Assembly (NCBI GenBank): GCA_017858055.1
Contig: JAFMCA010000004.1
Location: forward strand, 1-64,000
Source: Flavobacteriaceae bacterium
GTDB taxonomy: Bacteria > Bacteroidota > Bacteroidia > Flavobacteriales > Flavobacteriaceae
Direction: 5' to 3'
Length of the DNA: 64,000 nt
In this document: positions 30,412 through 42,302 of the stretch, piece by piece
Numbering within the stretch: the first letter of the stretch is position 1
Layout of the letters: every line of letters begins with the position of its first letter
Translations under genes and position numbers: made by a program
The notes under the pieces: model-generated
What the model saw: only the letters and a program-made list of their open reading frames with translations
What the model was told of the DNA's origin: nothing
Database searches by the model: none

Positions 30412-31740
30412 CTAATGATCATATCCTCCGATATCTTGAGCCATTCGGAGAGCCTTACCATCTGATAAACTTGCTACAAAACAACTGACATTCAGCAAAG
30501 TTTCATACAAATTACTCCCTTGCATGGGGATACCTTCTGGAACTAAGGAGAGTAAAAGTTTGTCGAAGGTGTGGGCATTTCCTTGCCATTTCTGAACGGC
30601 TGCATGGGTATAGTGTTCTAGCAAAATCGATAGGGCTCGATGACCGACAACTTCTTTTTGAATTACTTCTTTAGATTGATAGATATTTCGAACACTCAAG
30701 CTGATAATATCTTCTATTTGAGCTTTATACTGACTTTTATCTAATAAAGCCGCTTCAAAAGTCCCGGCTAAGATTGCCGATTCATTTTCTAAAAAAATCT
30801 TTACCGCATCTTGAATTAAACTGTTAATGGCTAAAGCTCGAAGATAACTTAAGCGCTGAGGTTTAAACTTTAATTGTGCATATTTCTTGGTATCTATTCG
30901 ATCTCGAACAAGATTAATTAAATATTCCAAAGCATATTCTTCTGAAATCCATCCAAGATTGATCCCGTCTTCAAAATCAATAATGGTATAGCAAATATCA
31001 TCCGCTGCTTCTACGAGATAAGCTAATGGATGACGAAAATAAGTCCCGTTATTTTCTAACGTAAGTTCCGTTGCTAAGTCCTTAAAAAAAGGAGCTTGAG
31101 CCTGAAAATAACCGTATTTTTTATCTGCTACATGCGAAGTGGGTTTAAGGGGTAAACTCGCTTTGGGGTATTTTACAAATGCCCCGAGTGTGGCATAACT
31201 CAAACGAAGTCCTCCTTCCGTACCGGGCATGGAATCCGTGAGTATTTTTAAGCCATTCGCATTCCCTTCAAAGTCACATAAATCTTGATACTCTAGGGAC
31301 GTTAGTTGGGATTTAAATTGAGCTCCTTTCCCTGCAGAAAAAAAATGCCCAATAGCTTTTTCTCCACTATGACCAAAAGGTGGATTCCCGATATCATGAG
31401 CTAAAGAGGCTGCTGCCGTTATTGCGCCGAAATCGTTAGGTTGATATCCAAGGCTGTGCTGTAAATGAGGGTGCTTGTCTACTATCGCTTTTCCTGCCAA
31501 TCGCCCTATGCTCCTTCCAACTACGGATACCTCTAAACTATGGGTAAGACGGGTGTGAACAAAATCGGTTTTAGAAAAAGGAATCACTTGCGTTTTATCT
31601 TGCAAACTTCGAAAAGGATTAGAAAATACAATCCGATCATAGTCTACCTCAAAGCCCAATCTCAAGTTATCCTGTTCTACTCTTAGGCGTTTATTTGTGT
31701 CGCCGAAACGTTTTAAAGACAATAATGATTCCCACTTCAT
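30412..31740 (-). CDS. dgt: Deoxyguanosinetriphosphate triphosphohydrolase (dGTPase)
   Basis: This 442-residue HD-superfamily enzyme hydrolyses dGTP to deoxyguanosine and triphosphate. The N-terminus has the dGTPase signature DYDRIVFSNPFRSLQDKTQV followed by RLTHSLEVS (His67). The HD pair is at His115-Asp116 in SLAHDIGNPPFGHSGE. Length and the later YLVEAADDICYTIIDFEDG motif match the family. Its activity links it to the ribonucleotide reductase genes further along, although they are not cotranscribed. Confidence 0.93.
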   Translation of the reverse strand: MKWESLLSLKRFGDTNKRLRVEQDNLRLGFEVDYDRIVFSNPFRSLQDKTQVIPFSKTDFVHTRLTHSLEVSVVGRSIGRLAGKAIVDKHPHLQHSLGYQPNDFGAITAAASLAHDIGNPPFGHSGEKAIGHFFSAGKGAQFKSQLTSLEYQDLCDFEGNANGLKILTDSMPGTEGGLRLSYATLGAFVKYPKASLPLKPTSHVADKKYGYFQAQAPFFKDLATELTLENNGTYFRHPLAYLVEAADDICYTIIDFEDGINLGWISEEYALEYLINLVRDRIDTKKYAQLKFKPQRLSYLRALAINSLIQDAVKIFLENESAILAGTFEAALLDKSQYKAQIEDIISLSVRNIYQSKEVIQKEVVGHRALSILLEHYTHAAVQKWQGNAHTFDKLLLSLVPEGIPMQGSNLYETLLNVSCFVASLSDGKALRMAQDIGGYDH

Positions 31741-31790: not shown

Positions 31791-31857
31791 GTTAAAAAAC
31801 CAAGCCAATGATTTAACCTTTAGCTAAACCCCCACCTTTCCATGCCCTATACATTTG
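31791..31857 (+). promoter_or_regulatory. Activator-type promoter region with TTAAC repeats upstream of the lipoprotein/TonB-receptor unit
   Basis: Three 6-base elements GTTAAA (31791), TTTAAC (31812) and GCTAAA (31823) are spaced 21 and 11 bases apart. A perfect -7 element TACATTTG lies at 31850-31857, and there is no TTTG box at the normal distance. The repeats end about where the upstream box should be, which is the layout of an activator-dependent promoter. The same 0/21/32 spacing occurs before the porin gene. Confidence 0.6.
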
Positions 31858-31895
31858 CAACAAATCTAATTCATCTAATTAAAACTTAAAACAAA

Positions 31896-33227
31896 ATGAC
31901 AAAATTTAAATTTATTCCCCTAATTGCAAGTTTCGCATTTTTTTCTTCTTGTTCTGAAGAAGAACCCATTATTGAATATGTCACCATTACTGAAACTGTT
32001 GTGGAAACCGTGGTAGAAACACAAACAGTTAAAGTGGAAACTGGACTCTATTCCGATTCTACTTTAGAAGGTAAAATTACAGATGACCTTACATTAGATT
32101 CCTCTAAAATATGGCTACTTAAAGGTAGGGTTTCTGTAGTTGCTGGAGTTACTTTAACCATTCCTGCTGGAACCATTATTAAAGCTGCTTCTGGAACAGG
32201 ATCTGATGCTTCCACCTTAATCATAGCCCGTGGAGCGAAAATAGTTGCTAATGGTACATCAGCTGCTCCCATTGTTTTCACCTCAATTTCTGACAACATA
32301 GAAGTAGACGGAACCTATCCAACAAATGGACCGTCATTAAATGTTGACACCCGAGGTTTATGGGGTGGACTCATTGTTCTTGGGAACGCTCCTGCTTCAT
32401 TCTCTGGAGATGTTACTGAACTTCAAATTGAAGGAATTCCAACTTCAGACACTAGCGGACTTTATGGAGGAACAGATCCTTTGGATAGTTCCGGTTCTCT
32501 TCAATACCTCTCTATACGACATGGTGGTGCAGAGATTGGAGAAGGTAATGAAATCAACGGACTCACTTTAGGTGGAGTAGGTTCTGGAACCACAATAAAT
32601 CAGATTGAAGTAGTTGGAAATGTAGATGACGGAATCGAATTCTTTGGAGGAACAGTTAATGCTTCAAACTTGCTCGTCTGGGGACAAGGAGACGATGCCT
32701 TAGACATTGACCAGGGTTATGCTGGTACTATCGACGGGGCTTTAGTGATATTGACTGCGGCTTCAGATCACGGCTTTGAAATTGATGGCCCCGAAGGATC
32801 TGCCCCAGGACGCTTTGCAATAAAAAATGCTACCGTTATTGGAGCAACATTTAATTGTATCGCTGAGGGTGTAGATGGAGAAATGGCTGACTTTAGAAAA
32901 GGAGCGACTGGAGACCTTATAAATATTTTATTCAAAAATTTTGCAGGTGGGAAAGATGTAGAATTAGACGATACTGCTGATGCGAACTCCTATACTGCTG
33001 GAACACTAACCTTTACCAATATTGACATCCAATACCCTACAGATTCTGAAGGTGCTGTTTGTAGTGACGTTGAAAGTTTAGATAAAATTTTTGATGACAA
33101 AACAGAAACTACAGAAAGTTCTTTTGAAACCGATGCTTTAAACTTTGCAGAAATTGTCTCAACTCAACAACAAGGAAATGGAGTTGATGAAAGCATATTC
33201 TCCTGGACCTTTTACGCCAAAAACTAA
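31896..33227 (+). CDS. Surface lipoprotein with beta-helix-like repeats, partner of TonB-dependent receptor
   Basis: This 443-residue protein has a lipoprotein signal ending FFSSC (Cys19), followed by acidic residues that could act as a surface-export signal in this phylum. A Val/Thr/Glu-rich stalk with repeated ETVVETVV-type units follows. The rest is Gly/Asn/Asp-rich with the pattern IPAGTIIKA, GGLIVLGNA, GVGSGTTINQIEVVGN and GDDALDIDQGY, which suggests stacked beta-helix rungs. I know related proteins as uncharacterised partners of TonB receptors. The following gene is such a receptor, and both lie beside phosphate porin and transporter genes. The function is unknown; ligand capture at the surface is an inference. 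Confidence 0.72.
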   Translation: MTKFKFIPLIASFAFFSSCSEEEPIIEYVTITETVVETVVETQTVKVETGLYSDSTLEGKITDDLTLDSSKIWLLKGRVSVVAGVTLTIPAGTIIKAASGTGSDASTLIIARGAKIVANGTSAAPIVFTSISDNIEVDGTYPTNGPSLNVDTRGLWGGLIVLGNAPASFSGDVTELQIEGIPTSDTSGLYGGTDPLDSSGSLQYLSIRHGGAEIGEGNEINGLTLGGVGSGTTINQIEVVGNVDDGIEFFGGTVNASNLLVWGQGDDALDIDQGYAGTIDGALVILTAASDHGFEIDGPEGSAPGRFAIKNATVIGATFNCIAEGVDGEMADFRKGATGDLINILFKNFAGGKDVELDDTADANSYTAGTLTFTNIDIQYPTDSEGAVCSDVESLDKIFDDKTETTESSFETDALNFAEIVSTQQQGNGVDESIFSWTFYAKN

Positions 33228-33276
33228 GTCTACCGAAAAGAATTATTTATTCCATTTTTAAATTTCATTTAACAAG

Positions 33277-33302
33277 AATTGCTCGAACTATTTCGGGCAA
33301 TT
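33277..33302 (+). terminator. Intergenic hairpin between lipoprotein and receptor genes
   Basis: AATTGCTCGAA and TTCGGGCAATT can form an 11-pair stem (one G-U) around a four-base loop, followed by TTGTTGTTTA. It could be a weak terminator or a processing site that sets different levels of the two proteins. Confidence 0.5.
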
Positions 33303-33328
33303 GTTGTTTAACTCCTTAAACCCTTCTA

Positions 33329-36166
33329 ATGAAAAACAACTTCTATTTCCAAATCATTCTCCCTTTAATTGTTTCTACTTTTTCTTTTGGTCAAGCCGGA
33401 ATTACTGGAACGGTAATCGATGGAGATTTTAATGAACCCCTACCCTTTGCAAATATTTTAATTCAAGAAACAGGGGATGGTGTGACTTCAGATTTCGATG
33501 GGAAATACACTTTTGAACTGGCAGCGGGAACCTATACCCTTCAATTTTCTTTTGTTGGTTATGAGACAAAAATAATTACAGGAATCCTTGTATCTGGTGA
33601 TGAATATACCCTCACTGATGTTGTTTTAAATTCTGCTTCTGAAGGTTTGGAGGAAGTGATTGTTACCGTGGAAGCGCTACGTAATACGGAATCCTCTGTT
33701 TTGAATATTCAACGAAAATCTGCAAGTCTTTTAGACGGAATCTCAGCGGAAGCTTTTAAAAAAATTGGGGCAAATGATATTGCTGCTGCTGTAAAAAGTG
33801 TCCCAGGAGTTTCTGTACAAGGTGGAAAATATGTTTATGTCAGAGGTTTAGGTGACCGGTACTCCAAATCCATTTTGAATGGGGTGGATATCCCAGGACT
33901 TGATCCTGACCGTAATACAATTCAAATGGACCTTTTTCCTACCAATATGCTTTCCAATGTTTTGGTAATTAAATCCGCTAGAGCTGATTTACCAGCTGAT
34001 TTTACAGGAGGAGTTATTGATATTGTGACTAAGGATTTTCCCACGAAAGAGGAGTTTGCTGTATCCATCAGCACTGCCTATAATCCAGACATGCATTTTA
34101 ATAAAAACTACTTGAACTATACAGGAGGTGCTACCGATTTTTTAGGATTTGATGACGGCTCAAGAAAAAACACCATTGCCAATACCTTTTTGGGGAATAC
34201 CTTCGACCCCAGATTAAACCCCTCGGAAACGGGCTTAAGTGTTATCAATCGAATCAGTAATCAATTCGATCCACAAATGGCACCAAAACAAGCAAACAGT
34301 GGGATGAATTATGGTTTGGGGATTAGCTATGGAAATCAATATAATTTTGAAAATGGACATCAATTTGGGGTATTGGGATCTCTATCTTATAAAAACGAAC
34401 AATCCCTCTATGAAAACACACAGGATAATATCTACAATTACAATCCCATAAAAACCGAATTTGCATTTGAAGAAAATAGAATACAAACCGGAACTATAGG
34501 AGGGCAAAATGTAATTGCTAGTGGACTGTTGGGATTGACCTACAAAACTTTAAATTCCAAAATAAAATTGAACGGCTTACATATTCAAAACGGTGAAAGT
34601 ACCGCCGGGAGTTTTAGACAACTTACTCGTTTTTCTGACTTTATCGATTTCAATAAATTCAATTTGGAGTATAACGAACGTAGTATTTCAAACGCTATGC
34701 TTTCTGGTCTCCACTCTTTTGAAGATTCAAACTTAAAATTGGAGTGGACCTTGTCTGGAACTCTGGCAAAGGTGCACGATAAAGATGTACGAAACACCAC
34801 CTTTCAGGATGAGGAAGGAATTTTTAGTTTTCAAGAAAACACAGAGCCCAAAAGAATATGGAGAACACTGGATGAATACAATTTGGTGAGTAAAGTCGAT
34901 TTTACGAAACGATATGAATTTTTAAAATCCAATGCGGTTCTAAAATTTGGTACCTACGGTTCATATAAGGAACGTGATTTTTCAATTGCACAGTATTCTG
35001 TAAGTTCCAATTACACTTCAGAAAATGATTGGAATAATTACAATGGAGATCCAAACCAACTTTTTAATCCCAACTTTCTTATCGGCCCAAACAATCTCAA
35101 AGGAACCTATATTAATCCACAAACTACCCTAAGACAAGATGCAAATGTATTCAATGCCAAACAGCAGAATTTTGCGGCTTATGTTTCTAATGAATTCAAT
35201 TTTACTGAAAAATTAAAATCTATTCTGGGATTTCGCTTTGAAAAGTATCAGGTGTTTTACACTGGGAAAAACAGTCAGTTAGGACAAGTATTCAACAATC
35301 AAAATATCATAAATAAAAACAATATATTTCCTTCAGCGAATTTTATTTACAGCTTGAATGAAAATCGGAATATCCGTCTTGCGTATTCGTTGACCACGGC
35401 AAGACCGAGTTTTAAAGAGGCTTCAATTGCCGAAATTTACGACCCCCTGTCCAACTTATTTTTTATCGGAAACATTAATATCCGTCCCACCTATATCGAT
35501 AATTTTGATCTCCGCTATGAAGCCTTTGGTGAAAATGCACAACTGTTTGCCCTAAGTGCCTTTTACAAAAACCTTACTGATCCCATTGAAATTGGTTTTG
35601 TTGCGGCATCTACCTCCAACTACAAGCCCCTCAATCTTGAACAAGCGAAAGTCTTTGGCTTAGAACTGGAGTTGAGAAAAGACCTCAGCACTTGGTTCGC
35701 AAATTTAACCCATTGGAATCTCAATATAAACGGATCTTATATTCTTTCAGATGAAAAATACAGTGAGGATGAATTGAAATTGAGACAACTTGGCCTGAGA
35801 GAAGGACAAACCTTGGGAGATTCAAGACCTTTACAGGGACAATCCCCATATTTAGTTAACGCTGGTTTGGAATACAACAACCAAGAAAAAAGTGTTCAGG
35901 GAGGTCTCTACTATAACGTTCAAGGAAAAACACTTCAAGTTGTTGGGGATGGCTTTTATCCTGATGTCTTTACTATGCCTTTTCACAGCCTTAATCTGAA
36001 TTTGACTAAGCAACTAGACCGCGGGCAAAAATTAACCTTAAAAATCACTAACCTATTAAACGATACTCAAGAAAGCCTGTTTATAGGAGCCGAAAATGAA
36101 AGTCAAGTATTTAGCTACAGGTTTTTGGGAAGAACCTTAAGTCTGGGGTACTCTGTAGCATTTTAA
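33329..36166 (+). CDS. TonB-dependent outer-membrane receptor
   Basis: This 945-residue receptor has a signal peptide (cleavage after FSFGQ) and a carboxypeptidase-regulatory-like beta-sandwich at about residues 24-110 (GITGTVIDGDFNEPLPFANI, FDGKYTF). A plug domain follows (about 120-230, with VPGVSVQGGKYVYVRGLGDRY), then a 22-strand barrel ending in an aromatic-rich C-terminus (RTLSLGYSVAF). It is not paired with a SusD-like protein; its partner is the upstream beta-helix lipoprotein. The convergent downstream genes encode a phosphate transporter and a porin, and the operon shares an operator pattern with them, so phosphate or an organophosphate is a reasonable substrate guess. Confidence 0.85.
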   Translation: MKNNFYFQIILPLIVSTFSFGQAGITGTVIDGDFNEPLPFANILIQETGDGVTSDFDGKYTFELAAGTYTLQFSFVGYETKIITGILVSGDEYTLTDVVLNSASEGLEEVIVTVEALRNTESSVLNIQRKSASLLDGISAEAFKKIGANDIAAAVKSVPGVSVQGGKYVYVRGLGDRYSKSILNGVDIPGLDPDRNTIQMDLFPTNMLSNVLVIKSARADLPADFTGGVIDIVTKDFPTKEEFAVSISTAYNPDMHFNKNYLNYTGGATDFLGFDDGSRKNTIANTFLGNTFDPRLNPSETGLSVINRISNQFDPQMAPKQANSGMNYGLGISYGNQYNFENGHQFGVLGSLSYKNEQSLYENTQDNIYNYNPIKTEFAFEENRIQTGTIGGQNVIASGLLGLTYKTLNSKIKLNGLHIQNGESTAGSFRQLTRFSDFIDFNKFNLEYNERSISNAMLSGLHSFEDSNLKLEWTLSGTLAKVHDKDVRNTTFQDEEGIFSFQENTEPKRIWRTLDEYNLVSKVDFTKRYEFLKSNAVLKFGTYGSYKERDFSIAQYSVSSNYTSENDWNNYNGDPNQLFNPNFLIGPNNLKGTYINPQTTLRQDANVFNAKQQNFAAYVSNEFNFTEKLKSILGFRFEKYQVFYTGKNSQLGQVFNNQNIINKNNIFPSANFIYSLNENRNIRLAYSLTTARPSFKEASIAEIYDPLSNLFFIGNINIRPTYIDNFDLRYEAFGENAQLFALSAFYKNLTDPIEIGFVAASTSNYKPLNLEQAKVFGLELELRKDLSTWFANLTHWNLNINGSYILSDEKYSEDELKLRQLGLREGQTLGDSRPLQGQSPYLVNAGLEYNNQEKSVQGGLYYNVQGKTLQVVGDGFYPDVFTMPFHSLNLNLTKQLDRGQKLTLKITNLLNDTQESLFIGAENESQVFSYRFLGRTLSLGYSVAF

Positions 36167-36195
36167 CAACCGGAAACGCCCCCTTCCAAACAGTA

Positions 36196-36236
36196 AAGTT
36201 ATAAGAAATAATCCTAAGGATTATTTCTTATAACTT
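36196..36236. terminator. Perfect 20-bp inverted repeat spanning the pit stop codon
   Basis: Arms of 20 bases (36196-36215 and 36217-36236) are exactly complementary around a single A at 36216. The right arm contains the last codons and stop of the Pit-DUF47 gene. It lies between convergent genes and would form a very stable hairpin in both transcripts, though neither side has a strong T run. Confidence 0.65.
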
Positions 36237-38464
36237 GTATAATACTCGTTGAGAAGATTCATAACACTTTTTACTATGTCCTTCGTTTCTAATAAAATAT
36301 TAAAATACAATGTCGTATTTTTTGGACTTGATTCTTCTTTTCGAGTACGCTCAATCTGCTTGTTTATTTTTTCAGAGATCATATCAACGATCTCTTGTTT
36401 TTGAGCAGTTAAAAACGAAACTCTCTCAAATTTTCTGCTGCTAAAAACTTCGATGATCTCAGCATACAACAACTCCAATCGGTCGTTGATTTCCTTTAAA
36501 TCTTTAAATTGATTGAACTTGAGCTTTTCGTGCTGATTTCTTACGTGCTTATAACTTTTCCTAGAAATAAATTCTAACGACTGTGCGATATCTGTTAGAT
36601 AAGCCAAAATAATGATATAAAAATTACTGCCCCGTACACTGGTCTCATCTAAACTTTTTATCAAATAGAAAATATTGTCTCTAAGCTCCTCTATTTCGCT
36701 TTCTAACTTCTCAACTCCTTTTTTGCTCTTCTTAAGCGTATCTACATTTTGAGTAGATAATCCCTTTAAAAAATTCGCATAGATCTTATTGGTTCTGGAG
36801 ATCACATTTACAATGTTATCTGCGGATTCAAATATGATCCCTTGAACCGTACTACTTTCAGATTTCTTTAATTCTCTTTGGGTTACTTGAGTCGTTTTCT
36901 TTTTGTGCTGAAGGAAGTTTCTAGCCAAAAGAAGAATTGTAACCAGCAATAATACAGGAATCATGGTGAATTTATCCCAACGAATTAGGAAAACAACAAT
37001 CCCAGAAGCAACAAAGGCTGCAAAAGCTGTTAAAAACCAACCTCCAATTACATTTACTACTCCTGCGACGCGGTATACGGCACTTTCTCGGCCCCATGCT
37101 CTATCCGCTAAGGAAGTTCCCATAGCTACCATAAAAGTAACATAAGTAGTAGATAAAGGCAGTTTCATCGCCGTAGCAATAGAAATCAGTATTCCAGCAA
37201 CCATTAAATTCACAGAAGCTCGGATCATATCAAATGCAGGTGCATCGAGACTTTGATCTTTACTGATCATAAAATTACTATTGCGTTCAAAGCTTTTTTC
37301 AATTTTTTTATGTGTGGATTCCGGTATCAAAGAACCGATGACTGAAGAAGACTTAAAGAAAAAGTTAACGATGCCTCTTGAAAAGAAATTCGGATTGAAT
37401 TTCTCATGCGTATCGTTTTGTCTTGACAAACCGATTTCAGTTTCTGCAACGGTTTTTGCCTTTTTAGAAAACCATAGTGTTACCACCATTATGCCCCCAG
37501 CAATAAATAATAAAAAGGGTTCTGCTGGCACTTTTTTATCCAGAGATTCCATGGAAAATAACGATGCGTCTATACCCGAAACGCTCCATGCCTCATAGGA
37601 ATGATATGCTGCCATAGACACTCCGATAAAGTTAACCAAGTCATTCCCTGAGAATGCTAAAGCAAGGCCAAAAGTTCCTACTAGGATGACAACAATCAAA
37701 ATACTTTTTTCAGAAATCTTCTGAAAGAGGTAGGAAAAAGCGGTCAAAATGATAAACGATATCACAACTAAAACAATTTCATTGTTTTTGAGTAGTCCAG
37801 ATATTTCGCTGTAAAAAGGAGTTCCTTGTAACCCTTTGATAAAGATAAAATAGGTTATAGAAGTGAGCGCTATTCCCCCAAAAAGGGCTCCAAAGTTTTT
37901 GATTTTCTTCTCAAACTGAAAAGTAAAAACTAGTCTAGATATATATTGAACAAAAGCACCCACAGAAAATGAAATTACCACAGATAAGAGTATTCCGCTG
38001 ATAATGGTAATCGCTTTGTCGGTATTGATATACCTTCCTATATCCACAAGTGTTTCTGTGTCGGATTCTAGTATTTTAAAAATAGACATCACAACCGAGG
38101 CTCCTAAAAGTGTAAAAACGATTGAAACGGTAGTGGAAGTAGGTAACCCTAGGGTATTAAAAAAATCGAGCAGTAAAATATCCGTAATGATTACTGCCAT
38201 AAAAATGATCATGATTTCATCAAAATAAAACTCACCAGGATTGAAAATTCCTTTTCGAGCTACTTCCATCATCCCACTGGAAAAAATTGCTCCAACAAAG
38301 ATTCCGACACTTGCAACAATCATGATAGTCTTCAGTGATATAGCTTTTGAGCCAATGGCAGAGTTTAAAAAGTTAATTGCATCATTGCTAACTCCCACTA
38401 CGATATCCAATACAGCAAGGGCTGCAAGGGCAATCAACATATATAAATAAATATTATCCATCAT
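36221..38464 (-). CDS. pit: Pit-family inorganic phosphate transporter fused to a DUF47 (PhoU-like) domain
   Basis: This 747-residue inner-membrane transporter has the two inverted PHO4 repeats, marked by GVSNDAINFLNSAIGSKA near the N-terminus and KLPLSTTYVTFMVAMG near residue 440. Multiple transmembrane segments follow to about residue 520. The C-terminal 210 residues are soluble and helical, with features of DUF47, the PhoU-like Pit accessory protein. In many bacteria DUF47 is a separate gene beside pit; here it is fused. The gene lies 56 bases after the porin gene and is probably cotranscribed with it. The stop codon is inside a long inverted repeat. Confidence 0.92.
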   Translation of the reverse strand: MMDNIYLYMLIALAALAVLDIVVGVSNDAINFLNSAIGSKAISLKTIMIVASVGIFVGAIFSSGMMEVARKGIFNPGEFYFDEIMIIFMAVIITDILLLDFFNTLGLPTSTTVSIVFTLLGASVVMSIFKILESDTETLVDIGRYINTDKAITIISGILLSVVISFSVGAFVQYISRLVFTFQFEKKIKNFGALFGGIALTSITYFIFIKGLQGTPFYSEISGLLKNNEIVLVVISFIILTAFSYLFQKISEKSILIVVILVGTFGLALAFSGNDLVNFIGVSMAAYHSYEAWSVSGIDASLFSMESLDKKVPAEPFLLFIAGGIMVVTLWFSKKAKTVAETEIGLSRQNDTHEKFNPNFFSRGIVNFFFKSSSVIGSLIPESTHKKIEKSFERNSNFMISKDQSLDAPAFDMIRASVNLMVAGILISIATAMKLPLSTTYVTFMVAMGTSLADRAWGRESAVYRVAGVVNVIGGWFLTAFAAFVASGIVVFLIRWDKFTMIPVLLLVTILLLARNFLQHKKKTTQVTQRELKKSESSTVQGIIFESADNIVNVISRTNKIYANFLKGLSTQNVDTLKKSKKGVEKLESEIEELRDNIFYLIKSLDETSVRGSNFYIIILAYLTDIAQSLEFISRKSYKHVRNQHEKLKFNQFKDLKEINDRLELLYAEIIEVFSSRKFERVSFLTAQKQEIVDMISEKINKQIERTRKEESSPKNTTLYFNILLETKDIVKSVMNLLNEYYTSYKK

Positions 38465-38520
38465 TTGGTTTTTAAAAGGTAAAGATGTGTTTTTTTATGA
38501 ATATCAAGGTTACTAAACTA

Positions 38521-39729
38521 TTAAAAATGCAAATCAAAACCAGTTCTGAAAAGCACGTAATCTTTCCTAGTGTCCGATCTTGAAAAACTGAGATCTGCCT
38601 GAACTTTTAAACTATGACCCACAATATACTTTGAGAGTCCATAGGTAATCTGCTGAAGATCGGATAGTCGGGTGATTTCTTGAAAATCTAAATTCGTATA
38701 CCTTATGGTCATTTCTACATTGTTTTTAAAGAGATAACTTCCTTGGAAATTGATTGCAGAACCTGCGCCTACCACTGCTCCTGTTTTTGTTTTTCCATCA
38801 TCTTCTAAAGCTTCAATGGCGTCTGCAGTTCTTTTTGCATATTCTCCAGTGAGTGCAAAACCATTGTATTTAAGTACTCCATCAACAAATAGGGTGGTAA
38901 TGTCAGTTTCAAATAAACCTCCACTGGATTGTGTCATGTATGAACCCAGATTTGAGCGGGTCTTTACTGCATTTTTGTTTATATCATAGGTGATTCCAAA
39001 CATAGCTTTAACGGTAGCCTCTCTAGATAAATCTCCCTGAGAGTAGTCTCCTTTGGATTTAAATTCACCGAAGGGTAATATTTCCAATCTACTGGTGTAC
39101 TGAAGACCCCCGAGATTCCCTTCTGTTATGTTTCTTCCTTCACCTTGTGATACTGCAAATTTTTCTTTGCTGATCCAGTTTCCAAAAAGTTTGGATTGGT
39201 GTCTCAATTGAACCCCCATATCCCGATCAATATTAAATCTGCTATTTAATAACGACCGATCAATCAATTGAAGGTTTGCTGAGGATACAACCCGCTCTAT
39301 GTTCCCTGGAAGTTTGGTTTGACCTGCCCACAATTCAAAGCCTTGATAGAATTCCCATTGGATTACGGCATCAAGGATATAACGAGGTGTATTCCTATTA
39401 AAAATACTTGCCCCAGAAATATCTCTGTTAGAAAGCCCTAGTTCTACCTTGTAAGAGAGTTTAGGCGAAAAAGCAAAGCCATCAAATTTTAATCGAGCTC
39501 TGCGGATCTGGAAGTTATATTCTGCAGGAGCATAGCTGTCTTCATCATAGTCCCACTGACTTTCGTAGCGTGTTTGGAAACGGGGAGCAAATTTTACACT
39601 AAAGGAACTGTCTTTAGCAATAAAATTAATCATCCCTTTGCCAAATTTAGTGTCACTGACTTGTTGAGCAAAAAGAAGGTTAGTAAATACGGTAATAAAA
39701 AATAAGCTGGATACTGTCCAATATTTCAT
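38521..39729 (-). CDS. OprO/OprP-type phosphate-selective porin
   Basis: This 402-residue outer-membrane protein has a signal peptide (MKYWTVSSLFFITVFTNLLF, cleaved near AQQ) and a porin O/P fold. FAPRFQTRYESQWDYDEDSY is followed by NFQIRRARLKFDGFAFSPKLS, and the protein ends in aromatic FDLHF as barrel proteins do. The family includes phosphate- and polyphosphate-selective porins of Pseudomonas. The Pit transporter directly downstream supports a phosphate role. The upstream region contains several GTTAAC-type repeats resembling Pho boxes. Confidence 0.88.
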   Translation of the reverse strand: MKYWTVSSLFFITVFTNLLFAQQVSDTKFGKGMINFIAKDSSFSVKFAPRFQTRYESQWDYDEDSYAPAEYNFQIRRARLKFDGFAFSPKLSYKVELGLSNRDISGASIFNRNTPRYILDAVIQWEFYQGFELWAGQTKLPGNIERVVSSANLQLIDRSLLNSRFNIDRDMGVQLRHQSKLFGNWISKEKFAVSQGEGRNITEGNLGGLQYTSRLEILPFGEFKSKGDYSQGDLSREATVKAMFGITYDINKNAVKTRSNLGSYMTQSSGGLFETDITTLFVDGVLKYNGFALTGEYAKRTADAIEALEDDGKTKTGAVVGAGSAINFQGSYLFKNNVEMTIRYTNLDFQEITRLSDLQQITYGLSKYIVGHSLKVQADLSFSRSDTRKDYVLFRTGFDLHF

Positions 39730-39770
39730 TTTCAGAAATTTTCTGCAAAAGACCGTATTTATGGAATATC

Positions 39771-39831
39771 CAATGTTAAGTTAACGTTAAGCATTTAACT
39801 CTTAGTTAACATGGCTTGTGAATATGTTAAC
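39771..39831 (-). promoter_or_regulatory. TTAAC repeat cluster upstream of the porin-pit operon (candidate Pho-type operator)
   Basis: Read on the minus strand, GTTAAC (39831), GTTAAC (39810) and GTTAAA (39799) are spaced 21 and 11 bases, followed by CTTAAC, GTTAAC and CTTAAC copies down to 39775. TAACATTG at 39778-39771 is a one-mismatch -7 element. The region can only serve the porin gene because nrdA ends at 39861 in the same direction. Confidence 0.6.
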
Positions 39832-39860
39832 AAACCGTTATTGTTTAGTGCATTTGTCCG

Positions 39861-42302
39861 TTATGAACCACACATCAAACAGTTGTCATCTTCATTCCCT
39901 TTGGCTTGTGCCAACATTTCTTTAAGTTCTTGTGGACTCAAGGGTTCTACAGGTACACTCGCCTGAGCAGTTGCTACGGAAGCTCCTGCTACTCCAGAGG
40001 CCATTTCGGCTACCGGTGGTGCTTCTGCTTTTACTTTATTATCTATAGTAAATTTGATTGCGTCAACAGCAGATTTCGTTCTCAAATAGTACATTCCTGT
40101 TTTTAGTCCTGATTTCCAACCGTAAAAATGCATTGATGTCAATTTAGCCATCGTAGCCCCCTCCATAAAAAGATTTAAGGATTGAGATTGGTCGATAAAG
40201 TACCCCCGTTGGCGCGACATATCAATAATGTCTTTCATACTCATTTCCCATACGGTACGGTAAAGTTCTTTTAGATCATTTGGAATGCCTTGGATATTTT
40301 GAACAGAACCATTATTACGCATCAATTCTTGCTTCATGTCTTCATTCCACAAACCTCGTTCAACCAAATCCTCCAGTAGGTGTTTGTTTACCACAATAAA
40401 TTCCCCCGAAAGAACGCGTCGAGTATAAATATTCGAGGTGTAAGGTTCAAAGCATTCGTTGTTACCTAAAATCTGAGAGGTACTTGCTGTAGGCATGGGA
40501 GCTACCAACAGTGAATTCCGTACTCCTTGCTTTTTAACCGTTTTGCGTAAAGCTTCCCAATCCCATCGTCCGCTAAGCTCCTCATCTTTAATGCCCCACA
40601 AATTGTGCTGGAATTCTCCATTAGAAATGGGAGATCCTTTGTAGGTAGGGTAGGGTCCATCTTTTTTGGCTTCCTCTGTGGAAGCGGTTACAGCTGCAAA
40701 ATAAAGCGTTTCAAAAATTTCTTGATTCAGTTTTTTAGCCTCGTCAGAGGTAAAAGGCAGTCTTAGCATAATAAAGGCGTCTGCTAAACCTTGAACCCCC
40801 AATCCAATTGGACGATGTCTGAAGTTAGAATTTTCTGCCTCTTTTACCGGGTAATAATTTCGATCGATTACTCGGTTAAGGTTTTTAGTCACCCTTACCG
40901 TCACATCAAATAGCGCCTTATGGTCAAATGCTTTGTCTTTGATGAACATGGGTAAAGCGATTGAAGCAAGATTACAAACCGCAACTTCGTCTGCTGAGGT
41001 ATATTCTAAAATTTCAGTACATAGGTTGGAAGACCGTATCGTCCCAAGATTTTTTTGATTGGATTTTCTGTTAGCAGAATCCTTATAAAGCATGTAAGGA
41101 GTACCCGTCTCAATTTGAGATTCTAATATTTTTTCCCAAAGCTCACGAGCTTTAATGGTCTTTCTACCCTTACCTTCTTTTTCGTATTGAGTATAGAGTG
41201 CTTCAAATTCTTCCCCGTGTACATTGAATAAGTTGGGACATTCGTTTGGACACATCAGAGTCCAATCTGCATTTTCTTCAACGCGTTTCATAAATAAATC
41301 CGGTGTCCACATGGCGTAAAACAAATCTCTTGCACGCATTTCCTCTTTCCCGTGATTCTTTTTTAATTCCAAAAATTCGAATATGTCCGCATGCCAAGGC
41401 TCTACGTAAATCGCAAAAGATCCTTTGCGCTTCCCTCCCCCTTGATCAACATAACGTGCTGTGTCGTTAAATACTCTGAGCATGGGTACGATTCCATTGG
41501 AAGTTCCATTGGTTCCTGAGATGTAGGAACCTGTTGCACGAACGTTGTGAATAGACAATCCGATTCCACCTGCTGATTGGGAGATTTTGGCGGTTTGTTT
41601 TAGCGTGTCGTAAATCCCGTCAATACTATCGTCTTTCATGGTTAAAAGAAAACAAGAAGACATTTGAGGTTTGGGAGTTCCTGAATTAAACAAGGTCGGA
41701 GTAGCGTGGGTAAAATAGCGCTTCGACATTAATTCGTAGGTCTCCAAAGCCGATTCGATATCGTCTAAATGAATACCAATGGAAACTCGCATGAGCATGT
41801 GCTGAGGACGCTCTACAATCTTTCCGTTAAGCTTCAAAAGATACGAGCGCTCTAAAGTTTTAAACCCAAAAAAGTCATAGCCAAAATCACGATTGTAGAT
41901 GATGCTTGAATCCAGTTTATCCGCATTTTTTTGAATGATTTTAAACACCTCATCCGAAAGTAAAGGAGCCTTCTTTCCGGTTCTTGGGTTGATGTATAGA
42001 TATAAATCGGTCATCGTTTCGGAGAACGACTTTTTGGTGTTTTTGTGGAGGTTGGATACCGAAATTCTGGCCGCCAACTTTGCATAATCGGGGTGTGTAG
42101 TGGTCATGGTCGCAGCGATTTCTGCAGCCAAATTATCCAATTCAGAGGTAGTTACTCCATCATACAGTCCTTCAATTACACGCATCGCAACCCGAACTGG
42201 ATCGACAAGAGGATTTAATCCATAGTTGAGCTTTCGGATTCTGGCGGTAATTTTATCGAACATGATGGGCTCTTTACGACCATCTCTTTTTACTACAAAC
42301 AT
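39861..42302 (-). CDS. nrdA: Class I ribonucleotide reductase, large (alpha) subunit
   Basis: This 813-residue catalytic subunit reduces ribonucleoside diphosphates to deoxyribonucleotides. An N-terminal ATP-cone ([16 protein letters not shown]) gives allosteric activity control. The active-site region includes [15 protein letters not shown] and CNLASIALP, and the mobile C-terminal tail ends with the redox pair CLMC before GS. These cysteines are all present. The gene follows nrdB by 64 bases on the same strand. An Ala/Pro-rich linker precedes the tail, as in other flavobacterial NrdA. Confidence 0.96.

Follow-up and report, generated by a model that had tools for sequence, protein, structure and literature searches.

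Bacteroidota are major users of organic phosphorus, but the literature that we found says little about the operator of their phosphate response. In Flavobacterium johnsoniae, phosphate depletion induces the TonB-dependent transporter Fjoh_0545 (8.02) and the lipoprotein FII, Fjoh_0546 (IPR011050; 9.91), both at the PhoBR locus, with fold changes that the text of PMC8115612 expresses in log2. For Riemerella anatipestifer, the available text of PMC9603813 reports a PhoP motif from DNA affinity purification sequencing (DAP-seq) that resembles the ArcA motif and in which TTTAACA is most conserved, and PhoPR is upregulated in phosphate starvation. In Bacteroides fragilis, PhoB binds at the pstC promoter, for which the available text of PMC3547664 gives no motif, and two further Bacteroides papers (PMC12596196 and PMC10994844) do not mention PhoB. 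In the open-licence literature, among the matches listed, we found no description of an operator of Flavobacteriaceae porin-pit or lipoprotein-receptor promoters. Here we analyze two such promoters in a Flavobacteriaceae bacterium. They lie in a window of 64 kb, by which we mean the whole stretch of DNA analyzed; it is part of contig C48 in a genome of 2.0 Mb (67 contigs, 95.9% complete). One promoter precedes a beta-helix lipoprotein gene with an adjoining TonB-dependent receptor gene, the other the gene of a phosphate-selective porin that is followed by a PiT-type phosphate transporter gene (pit). We propose, with a probability of roughly 85%, that both promoters carry a flavobacterial Pho box to which a phosphorylated PhoB/PhoP-type regulator would bind, activating transcription under phosphate starvation.

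Two promoters with 11-bp direct repeats in register with the promoter core

Promoters of Bacteroidota follow a -33/-7 consensus. Both promoters in the window contain two or more direct repeats arranged head to tail at 11 bp, the layout of a Pho box, and the repeats have a fixed place by the promoter core, where they replace the -35/-33 element (Table 1). The distance to the TTTG of the -7 element is 26 bp in the window's genus, and in other genera the repeats are found at -37/-26/-15 from it. An earlier note on this sequence had reported GTTAAA, TTTAAC and GCTAAA from 31791, 31812 and 31823 on the plus strand and GTTAAC, GTTAAC and GTTAAA from 39831, 39810 and 39799 on the minus strand, with common offsets of 0/21/32 and the third elements 73 and 70 bases before the start codons. 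These coordinates, orientations, offsets and distances are all exact. The two transcription units, described there as divergent, are in fact convergent and face each other (plus strand from 31896, minus strand from 39729).

The 0/21/32 triple is real as a spacing and fails as a unit, since it consists of one half of an upper 11-bp pair and the whole of a lower pair that follows 32 bp later. The two triples agree with each other, yet they are 19 bp apart relative to their promoters. At the porin promoter, a third pair that was absent from the earlier note (39786/39775) holds the conserved 26-bp distance to TTTG (39749), and at the lipoprotein promoter this promoter-proximal place is occupied by the pair 31817/31828. 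When both strands of the window were scanned with the same four hexamers, a set chosen after the fact, or with the relaxed class [GT][TC]TAA[AC], the spaced triple turned up nowhere but at the two reported sites; in 60 dinucleotide shuffles of the window, the mean was 0 triples for the four hexamers and 0.017 for the relaxed class. We rejected the exact 0/21/32 triple as a useful search unit after a whole-genome scan that returned the porin site and a single further match, with the control also returning two. The two operators also share the word CAAGCCA between the first and second pair (31801-31807 and 39812-39818 in the window), at offsets of 10 and 13 from the first hexamer.

Conservation within the genus and across the family

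Porin orthologs are present in 17 of 38 genomes of the genus. NTAAY elements at 11-bp spacing occur in 14 of these 17 upstream regions, which are related sequences, whereas 500 shuffle runs gave 1.15 on average and never more than 5. Spacings of 21 and 32 bp are likewise in excess (6/17 and 7/17), at levels unreached in 500 shuffles. TTTG follows the last repeat at 26 bp in 10 of the 12 genus porin promoters that were used for a first search model (R1, see below). The repeats in the genus lie at -37/-26, mostly without a -15 repeat. The lipoprotein gene has orthologs in 24/38 genomes, and we compared 26 non-empty upstream regions: the pair is present together with TTTG at exactly +26 in 22 of them, and in 24 if TTTA or a shift by one base is allowed. 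The remaining two are L055, which ends at a contig edge, and L062, which has no pair. In 10/26 regions, as in the window, the proximal pair is joined by another one exactly 32 bp upstream.

The arrangement extends beyond the genus. We found porin orthologs in 118 of 199 genomes of the family and analyzed 68 porin loci, all of them from other genera (28 loci and 40 regions). The gene after the porin on the same strand is pit in 61 loci and pstS in 6, and was not found in one. Three repeats at -37/-26/-15 from TTTG are present in 46/68 promoters (shuffle mean 0.005, maximum 1) and at least two repeats in register in 62/68 (shuffle mean 1.0, maximum 4; 200 runs in either case); the consensus of these 62 is ATTAACCTTTAGGAAACATTAAGTTAACAT. 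For the lipoprotein we took the best 80 named loci out of 507 homologous ones, five of which are in or near the window's genus and 77 of which have enough upstream sequence. The repeat pair is in register in 47/77, compared with a mean of 0.44 over 200 shuffle runs, none of which exceeded 3, and with a background of 1.35% among 3401 other windows from the same loci. A TonB-receptor match is present with the lipoprotein in 79 of the 80 loci, and in most of them it follows the lipoprotein gene; the loci also contain pit (32), the porin (14) and dgt, the gene of a dGTP triphosphohydrolase (35). The repeats, their fixed register, their conservation and their gene neighbors are direct observations, and conservation in related species, by which the earlier note had proposed to judge the sites, is clear both within the genus and in other genera.

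Could such an array arise by chance in AT-rich DNA, or from a constitutive promoter with a conserved -33 region that resembles TTAAC by coincidence? The intergenic DNA is indeed AT-rich, the conserved block overlaps the promoter, and the lipoprotein -7 element, TACATTTG, is a good one. Chance, the alternative named in the earlier note, is nevertheless ruled out by the counts against shuffles: exact 11-bp steps and a fixed register characterize the 62 porin and 47 lipoprotein promoters, and none of 20 upstream regions of control genes. A constitutive promoter, moreover, needs no three repeats in a row. We regard this explanation in either form as barely credible.

A PhoB-like regulator as the candidate binding protein

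Six response regulators score above cut-off in this genome, and two of them have an OmpR-type DNA-binding domain. The first, L021 (G000:C42:61979), finds its best NCBIfam match in PhoB, combines a receiver (PF00072) with a winged-helix domain (PF00486), and adjoins a PhoR/PnpS-like kinase (PF00512, PF02518). It lies below the curated PhoB cut-off and is therefore called PhoB-like here. The second, L022, is RprY-like and adjoins a kinase of its own. The other four are a sigma-54 activator, a PglZ-domain protein, which we take to be PorX-like, and one regulator each of the LuxR and LytTR types. The OmpR/PhoB class suggested in the earlier note fits this inventory.

In this genome the genes of the PhoB-like regulator and its PhoR-like kinase are located outside the window. 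Among the 80 homologous lipoprotein-receptor loci, many of which end at contig edges, 20 include a PhoB-like regulator (one weak partial match, L311, was left out of the count), and in 15 its gene is immediately divergent from the lipoprotein gene, in genera that include Gillisia, Arenibacter, Maribacter, Lutimonas and Croceitalea. These 20 regulators share 50-64% identity with L021 and 31-37% with RprY. The idea of the earlier note that the TonB receptor is tied to phosphate gains support from this synteny with a PhoB/PhoR-like pair and from the published F. johnsoniae data, as far as the text of PMC8115612 presents them. The sites might instead be bound by RprY (L022), as the sole other OmpR-type regulator among the six. 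An RprY-like gene occurs in 1/80 lipoprotein loci versus 20/80 for a PhoB-like one, and we consider binding by RprY very unlikely.

For the PhoB-like regulator we infer binding of L021 to the repeats, an activating effect, phosphate as the signal and the nature of the receptor substrate. In this model the phosphorylated PhoB/PhoP-type regulator, here L021, would bind 11-bp repeats of the type TTAACATTAAG head to tail. One repeat sits at the -33 position; because it occupies this place, the regulator would take over the corresponding contact and bring RNA polymerase to the TTTG of the -7 element, which lies at a fixed distance, and further pairs upstream would load additional dimers. Phosphate starvation would then switch on uptake by the porin and PiT. 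The beta-helix lipoprotein and its TonB receptor, whose probable role is to capture phosphorus-bearing matter, would be switched on in parallel.

Other phosphate genes and genome-wide searches

Both porin-pit and porin-pst operons carry the site. Among the upstream regions of genuine pstS genes, 3/10 are in register, and several of the rest closely follow a porin; a control set of other, non-Pho binding proteins gave 0/20. No PstS scored above the family cut-off in any of the 38 genus genomes, which vary in completeness (three weak matches fell below it). The genus of the window may rely on the porin and PiT.

We searched with three models. R1, built from 12 genus porin promoters, was discarded: the MAFFT alignment had moved rows L005 and L006 by 11 columns, and the lipoprotein site was not recovered. 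Its second match (C56:20054, E 0.018) has no gene start downstream in the stretch examined. With R2, the two sites of the window, both of which belong to its training set, are the two best matches in this genome (E 0.0044 and 0.0048; next match 0.18). Among the further R2 matches listed, in 20 regions of E 0.0076-0.23, 14 fall within open stretches that are 150 or more codons long; others exist up to E 1. One of the 20 (L154, G020:C89:46530, from a genus member) is a well-formed box that has TTTGCA and precedes a frame encoding a TonB plug domain.

R3 was derived from 44 porin promoters of other genera only and run over 20 family genomes. Its best match is a porin promoter in 19/20 of these, many of the sites being in the training set. 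After setting aside 10 matches up to about 350 bp upstream of a porin, which bear on the candidate small RNA described below, we examined the next 20: 6 are inside genes, for 2 no downstream gene was found, and 12 precede a gene. These 12 genes are pstS (1), pit (1), a TonB receptor (1), genes with a CarboxypepD domain (3), dgt (3), and aspS, a DUF4230 gene and an RNase R-like gene. Two of the three CarboxypepD-domain genes are followed by a TonB receptor and one by porin-pit. The R3 matches are enriched for the locus and for phosphate uptake, and some are unexplained. Read against the matrix scan for Pho genes proposed in the earlier note, the outcome with R3 is partial: it returned promoters of pstS, pit and a TonB receptor, and it also returned the 6 matches inside genes.

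Several observations weigh against the Pho-box reading. OmpR-family boxes with an 11-bp period are not specific to phosphate, and, judged by the motif alone, WalR-, ArcA- or CpxR-like regulators would be compatible too. None of 26 PhoX-family upstream regions is in register (29 were given, 3 of them without upstream sequence), many of the proteins in this test matching only part of the PhoX profile. The enrichment before phosphate genes that the earlier note had expected is partial: the porin is followed by pit or pstS in 67/68 loci and 3/10 pstS upstream regions have the pair, against none in the PhoX family. L021 remains below the curated PhoB cut-offs, with 209.6 of 296.2 bits for TIGR02154 and 205.9 of 270 bits for NF053854, and the upstream region of its own gene has no clear array. 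The genus members L004, L014 and L017 have no array at the porin gene, which there closely follows nrdA, and 30 of the 77 lipoprotein promoters are out of register. Finally, the porin Fjoh_0542 beside F. johnsoniae phoBR is reported in the text of PMC8115612 as uninduced; it is perhaps no ortholog of the window's porin.

The sites could accordingly be genuine OmpR-family sites that answer a signal other than phosphate, for example an envelope or redox signal as with WalR or ArcA, with phosphate uptake forming part of the regulon. Such a reading would accommodate the PhoX-family result and the shortfall of L021, which scores with the YycF/WalR and VanR families too, as well as the 583 peaks and the ArcA-resembling motif described for R. 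anatipestifer PhoP in the available text of PMC9603813. It is at odds with the strong R2 matches in the genus, which are porin and lipoprotein promoters, with the fact that 6 of the 12 R3 matches before genes belong to pstS, to pit, to a TonB receptor or to CarboxypepD-domain genes that are followed by a receptor or by porin-pit, and with the induction by phosphate depletion that the text of PMC8115612 gives for the corresponding F. johnsoniae locus. We judge a signal other than phosphate to be unlikely, and the Pho-box reading of both sites, as far as sequence analysis can carry it, to be well supported. If it is correct, the phosphate regulon could be read from the genome through a family-wide Pho box with an exact register, uncultured lineages included, and phosphorus capture would be predicted for a poorly known class of TonB receptors that work with a beta-helix lipoprotein. 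It also suggests how a PhoB-type activator may fit the -33/-7 promoters of Bacteroidota.

A candidate small RNA upstream of the porin gene

In other genera, the region above the porin promoter contains a second element. We used 64 other-genus porin loci for an analysis of leader complementarity, leaving out 4 of the 68 that have no repeat at all. The start of the porin leader is perfectly complementary to an upstream stretch over at least 10 nt in 52/64 loci and over at least 12 nt in 44/64, compared with 0-5 of 64 loci for shuffled leaders (20 rounds). In 58 loci the stretch, TTTTTGTC, is found some 105-205 nt upstream of the porin TTTG. In 50 of these 58 we could delimit the element that contains it, which is about 85-115 nt long and has a terminator at its end (examples in Table 1). 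The element is preceded by repeats in the same register: under a looser definition of the repeat, 41/58 loci have at least two and 13/58 have three, where shuffles gave 0.24 for three.

It is likely that the predicted Pho operator across Flavobacteriaceae controls a small RNA (sRNA) as well, one about 85-115 nt long and encoded just upstream of porin-pit or porin-pst, whose segment AGUUUUUGUCG would be complementary to the 5' end of the porin mRNA, CGACAAAAACU, forming a feed-forward circuit that tunes phosphate uptake post-transcriptionally. Pairing between the candidate sRNA and the leader is better within than between genomes, and 0/2000 permutations reach the observed value (56 loci used, 8 dropped), a comparison from which relatedness was not removed. 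RNAalifold, applied to 33 of the 50 sequences, found two-sided changes in 8/12 pairs, all in the terminator, and no consensus for the 5' hairpins; five sequences folded singly gave z-scores of -4.3 to -5.8. A comparison of 10 loci that have the candidate sRNA with Rfam gave no match, and the literature held nothing resembling it among the matches listed. The main alternative is an inverted repeat that acts at the level of DNA instead of a transcribed sRNA. The seed of the candidate sRNA (17 nt, at most 2 mismatches) does not occur in this genome, and it matches in 12/38 genus genomes, fewer than the reversed control. The window's lineage has kept the operator and has no sign of the candidate sRNA. 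If transcribed, the candidate would constitute a conserved phosphate-response RNA.

Gene content of the window

The lipoprotein of the window has no match in Pfam and none in NCBIfam. Its AlphaFold model (predicted local distance difference test score, pLDDT, of 86) consists of strands throughout with a few short helices. Among solved structures, right-handed beta-helix enzymes and tailspikes come closest, at low template modeling (TM) scores of about 0.3 and with one match of E <0.001. Compared by fold type and annotation, the model agrees with the pectin-lyase-type annotation of FII, and the predicted beta-helix lipoprotein adjoins a TonB receptor as in the F. johnsoniae FII pair. In L010 and L011, the porin upstream region opens, by eye, with an apparent dgt start, and the porin operon is seemingly beside dgt with no lipoprotein and receptor between them. 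In three genomes (L355, L359 and L364), dgt itself has a Pho-like box directed toward it.

Table 1. Positions of the operator elements, the surrounding genes and examples of the candidate sRNA
Feature	Position	Strand	Remarks
dGTP triphosphohydrolase (dgt)	30412..31740	-	NCBIfam TIGR01353; divergent from lipoprotein gene
Upstream pair of lipoprotein promoter, GATAAT-N5-GTTAAA	31780..31796	+	final letters 31785, 31796
Proximal Pho-box-like pair of lipoprotein promoter, TTTAAC-N5-GCTAAA	31812..31828	+	final letters 31817, 31828
Lipoprotein -7 element TACATTTG	31850..31857	+	TTTG from 31854, 26 bp past 31828
Beta-helix lipoprotein gene, 443 aa	31896..33227	+	resembles FII type of F. johnsoniae
TonB-dependent receptor, 945 aa	33329..36166	+	PF00593, PF07715, PF13715
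PiT-type phosphate transporter (pit), 747 aa	36221..38464	-	PF01384; next gene after porin, same strand
Phosphate-selective porin O/P family, 402 aa	38521..39729	-	PF07396
TTTG of porin -7 element (TTTTGCA)	39746..39749	-	26 bp after 39775
Promoter-proximal porin pair, CTTAAC / CTTAAC	39775..39791	-	final letters 39786, 39775; same place in orthologs
Second porin pair, GTTAAC / GTTAAA	39794..39810	-	final letters 39805, 39794; 32 bp after first
Upstream pair of porin promoter, AATAAC / GTTAAC	39826..39842	-	final letters 39837, 39826
Ribonucleotide reductase large subunit (nrdA)	39861..42302	-	PF02867; directly upstream of porin promoter
Candidate sRNA, examples among L175-L241	L182:2782-2887; L188:1288-1377	- (L182)	

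Comparison with known phosphate-response systems

We compared the two operators and their genes with the described systems. The F. johnsoniae PhoBR locus (PUSIV, Fjoh_0541-0549) resembles the window in combining a TonB receptor, a lipoprotein and a porin. As presented in the text of PMC8115612, the F. johnsoniae lipoprotein is annotated IPR011050, the porin is of the OprP type, and receptor and lipoprotein adjoin PhoRB and are both strongly induced by phosphate depletion; the main text describes no operator under the word 'motif'. Unlike that locus, the window has its regulator elsewhere and porin-pit beside the receptor. The PhoP motif of R. anatipestifer, also of the Flavobacteriales, shares the TTTAACA core, and a TonB-receptor promoter is among its targets in electrophoretic mobility shift assays; it differs in that the available text of PMC9603813 gives no fixed -7 register and names no porin-pit or lipoprotein-receptor operon. 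Putative PhoB boxes have further been reported for the plcP clusters of marine bacteria, Flavobacteria among them, at genes other than those found here (available text of PMC4796936). With the Pho box of Escherichia coli PhoB the sites have in common two head-to-tail direct repeats of 11 nt, as described in the available text of PMC4415409, and phosphate-uptake genes downstream. In contrast to that box, the core here is TTAAC/GAAAC instead of CTGTCAT, and the promoter has the Bacteroidota -7 TTTG core with the -33 place taken by a repeat. The PhoP box of Bacillus subtilis, which belongs to a different phylum and promoter type, consists of TTAACA-like repeats and is similar in both core and period.

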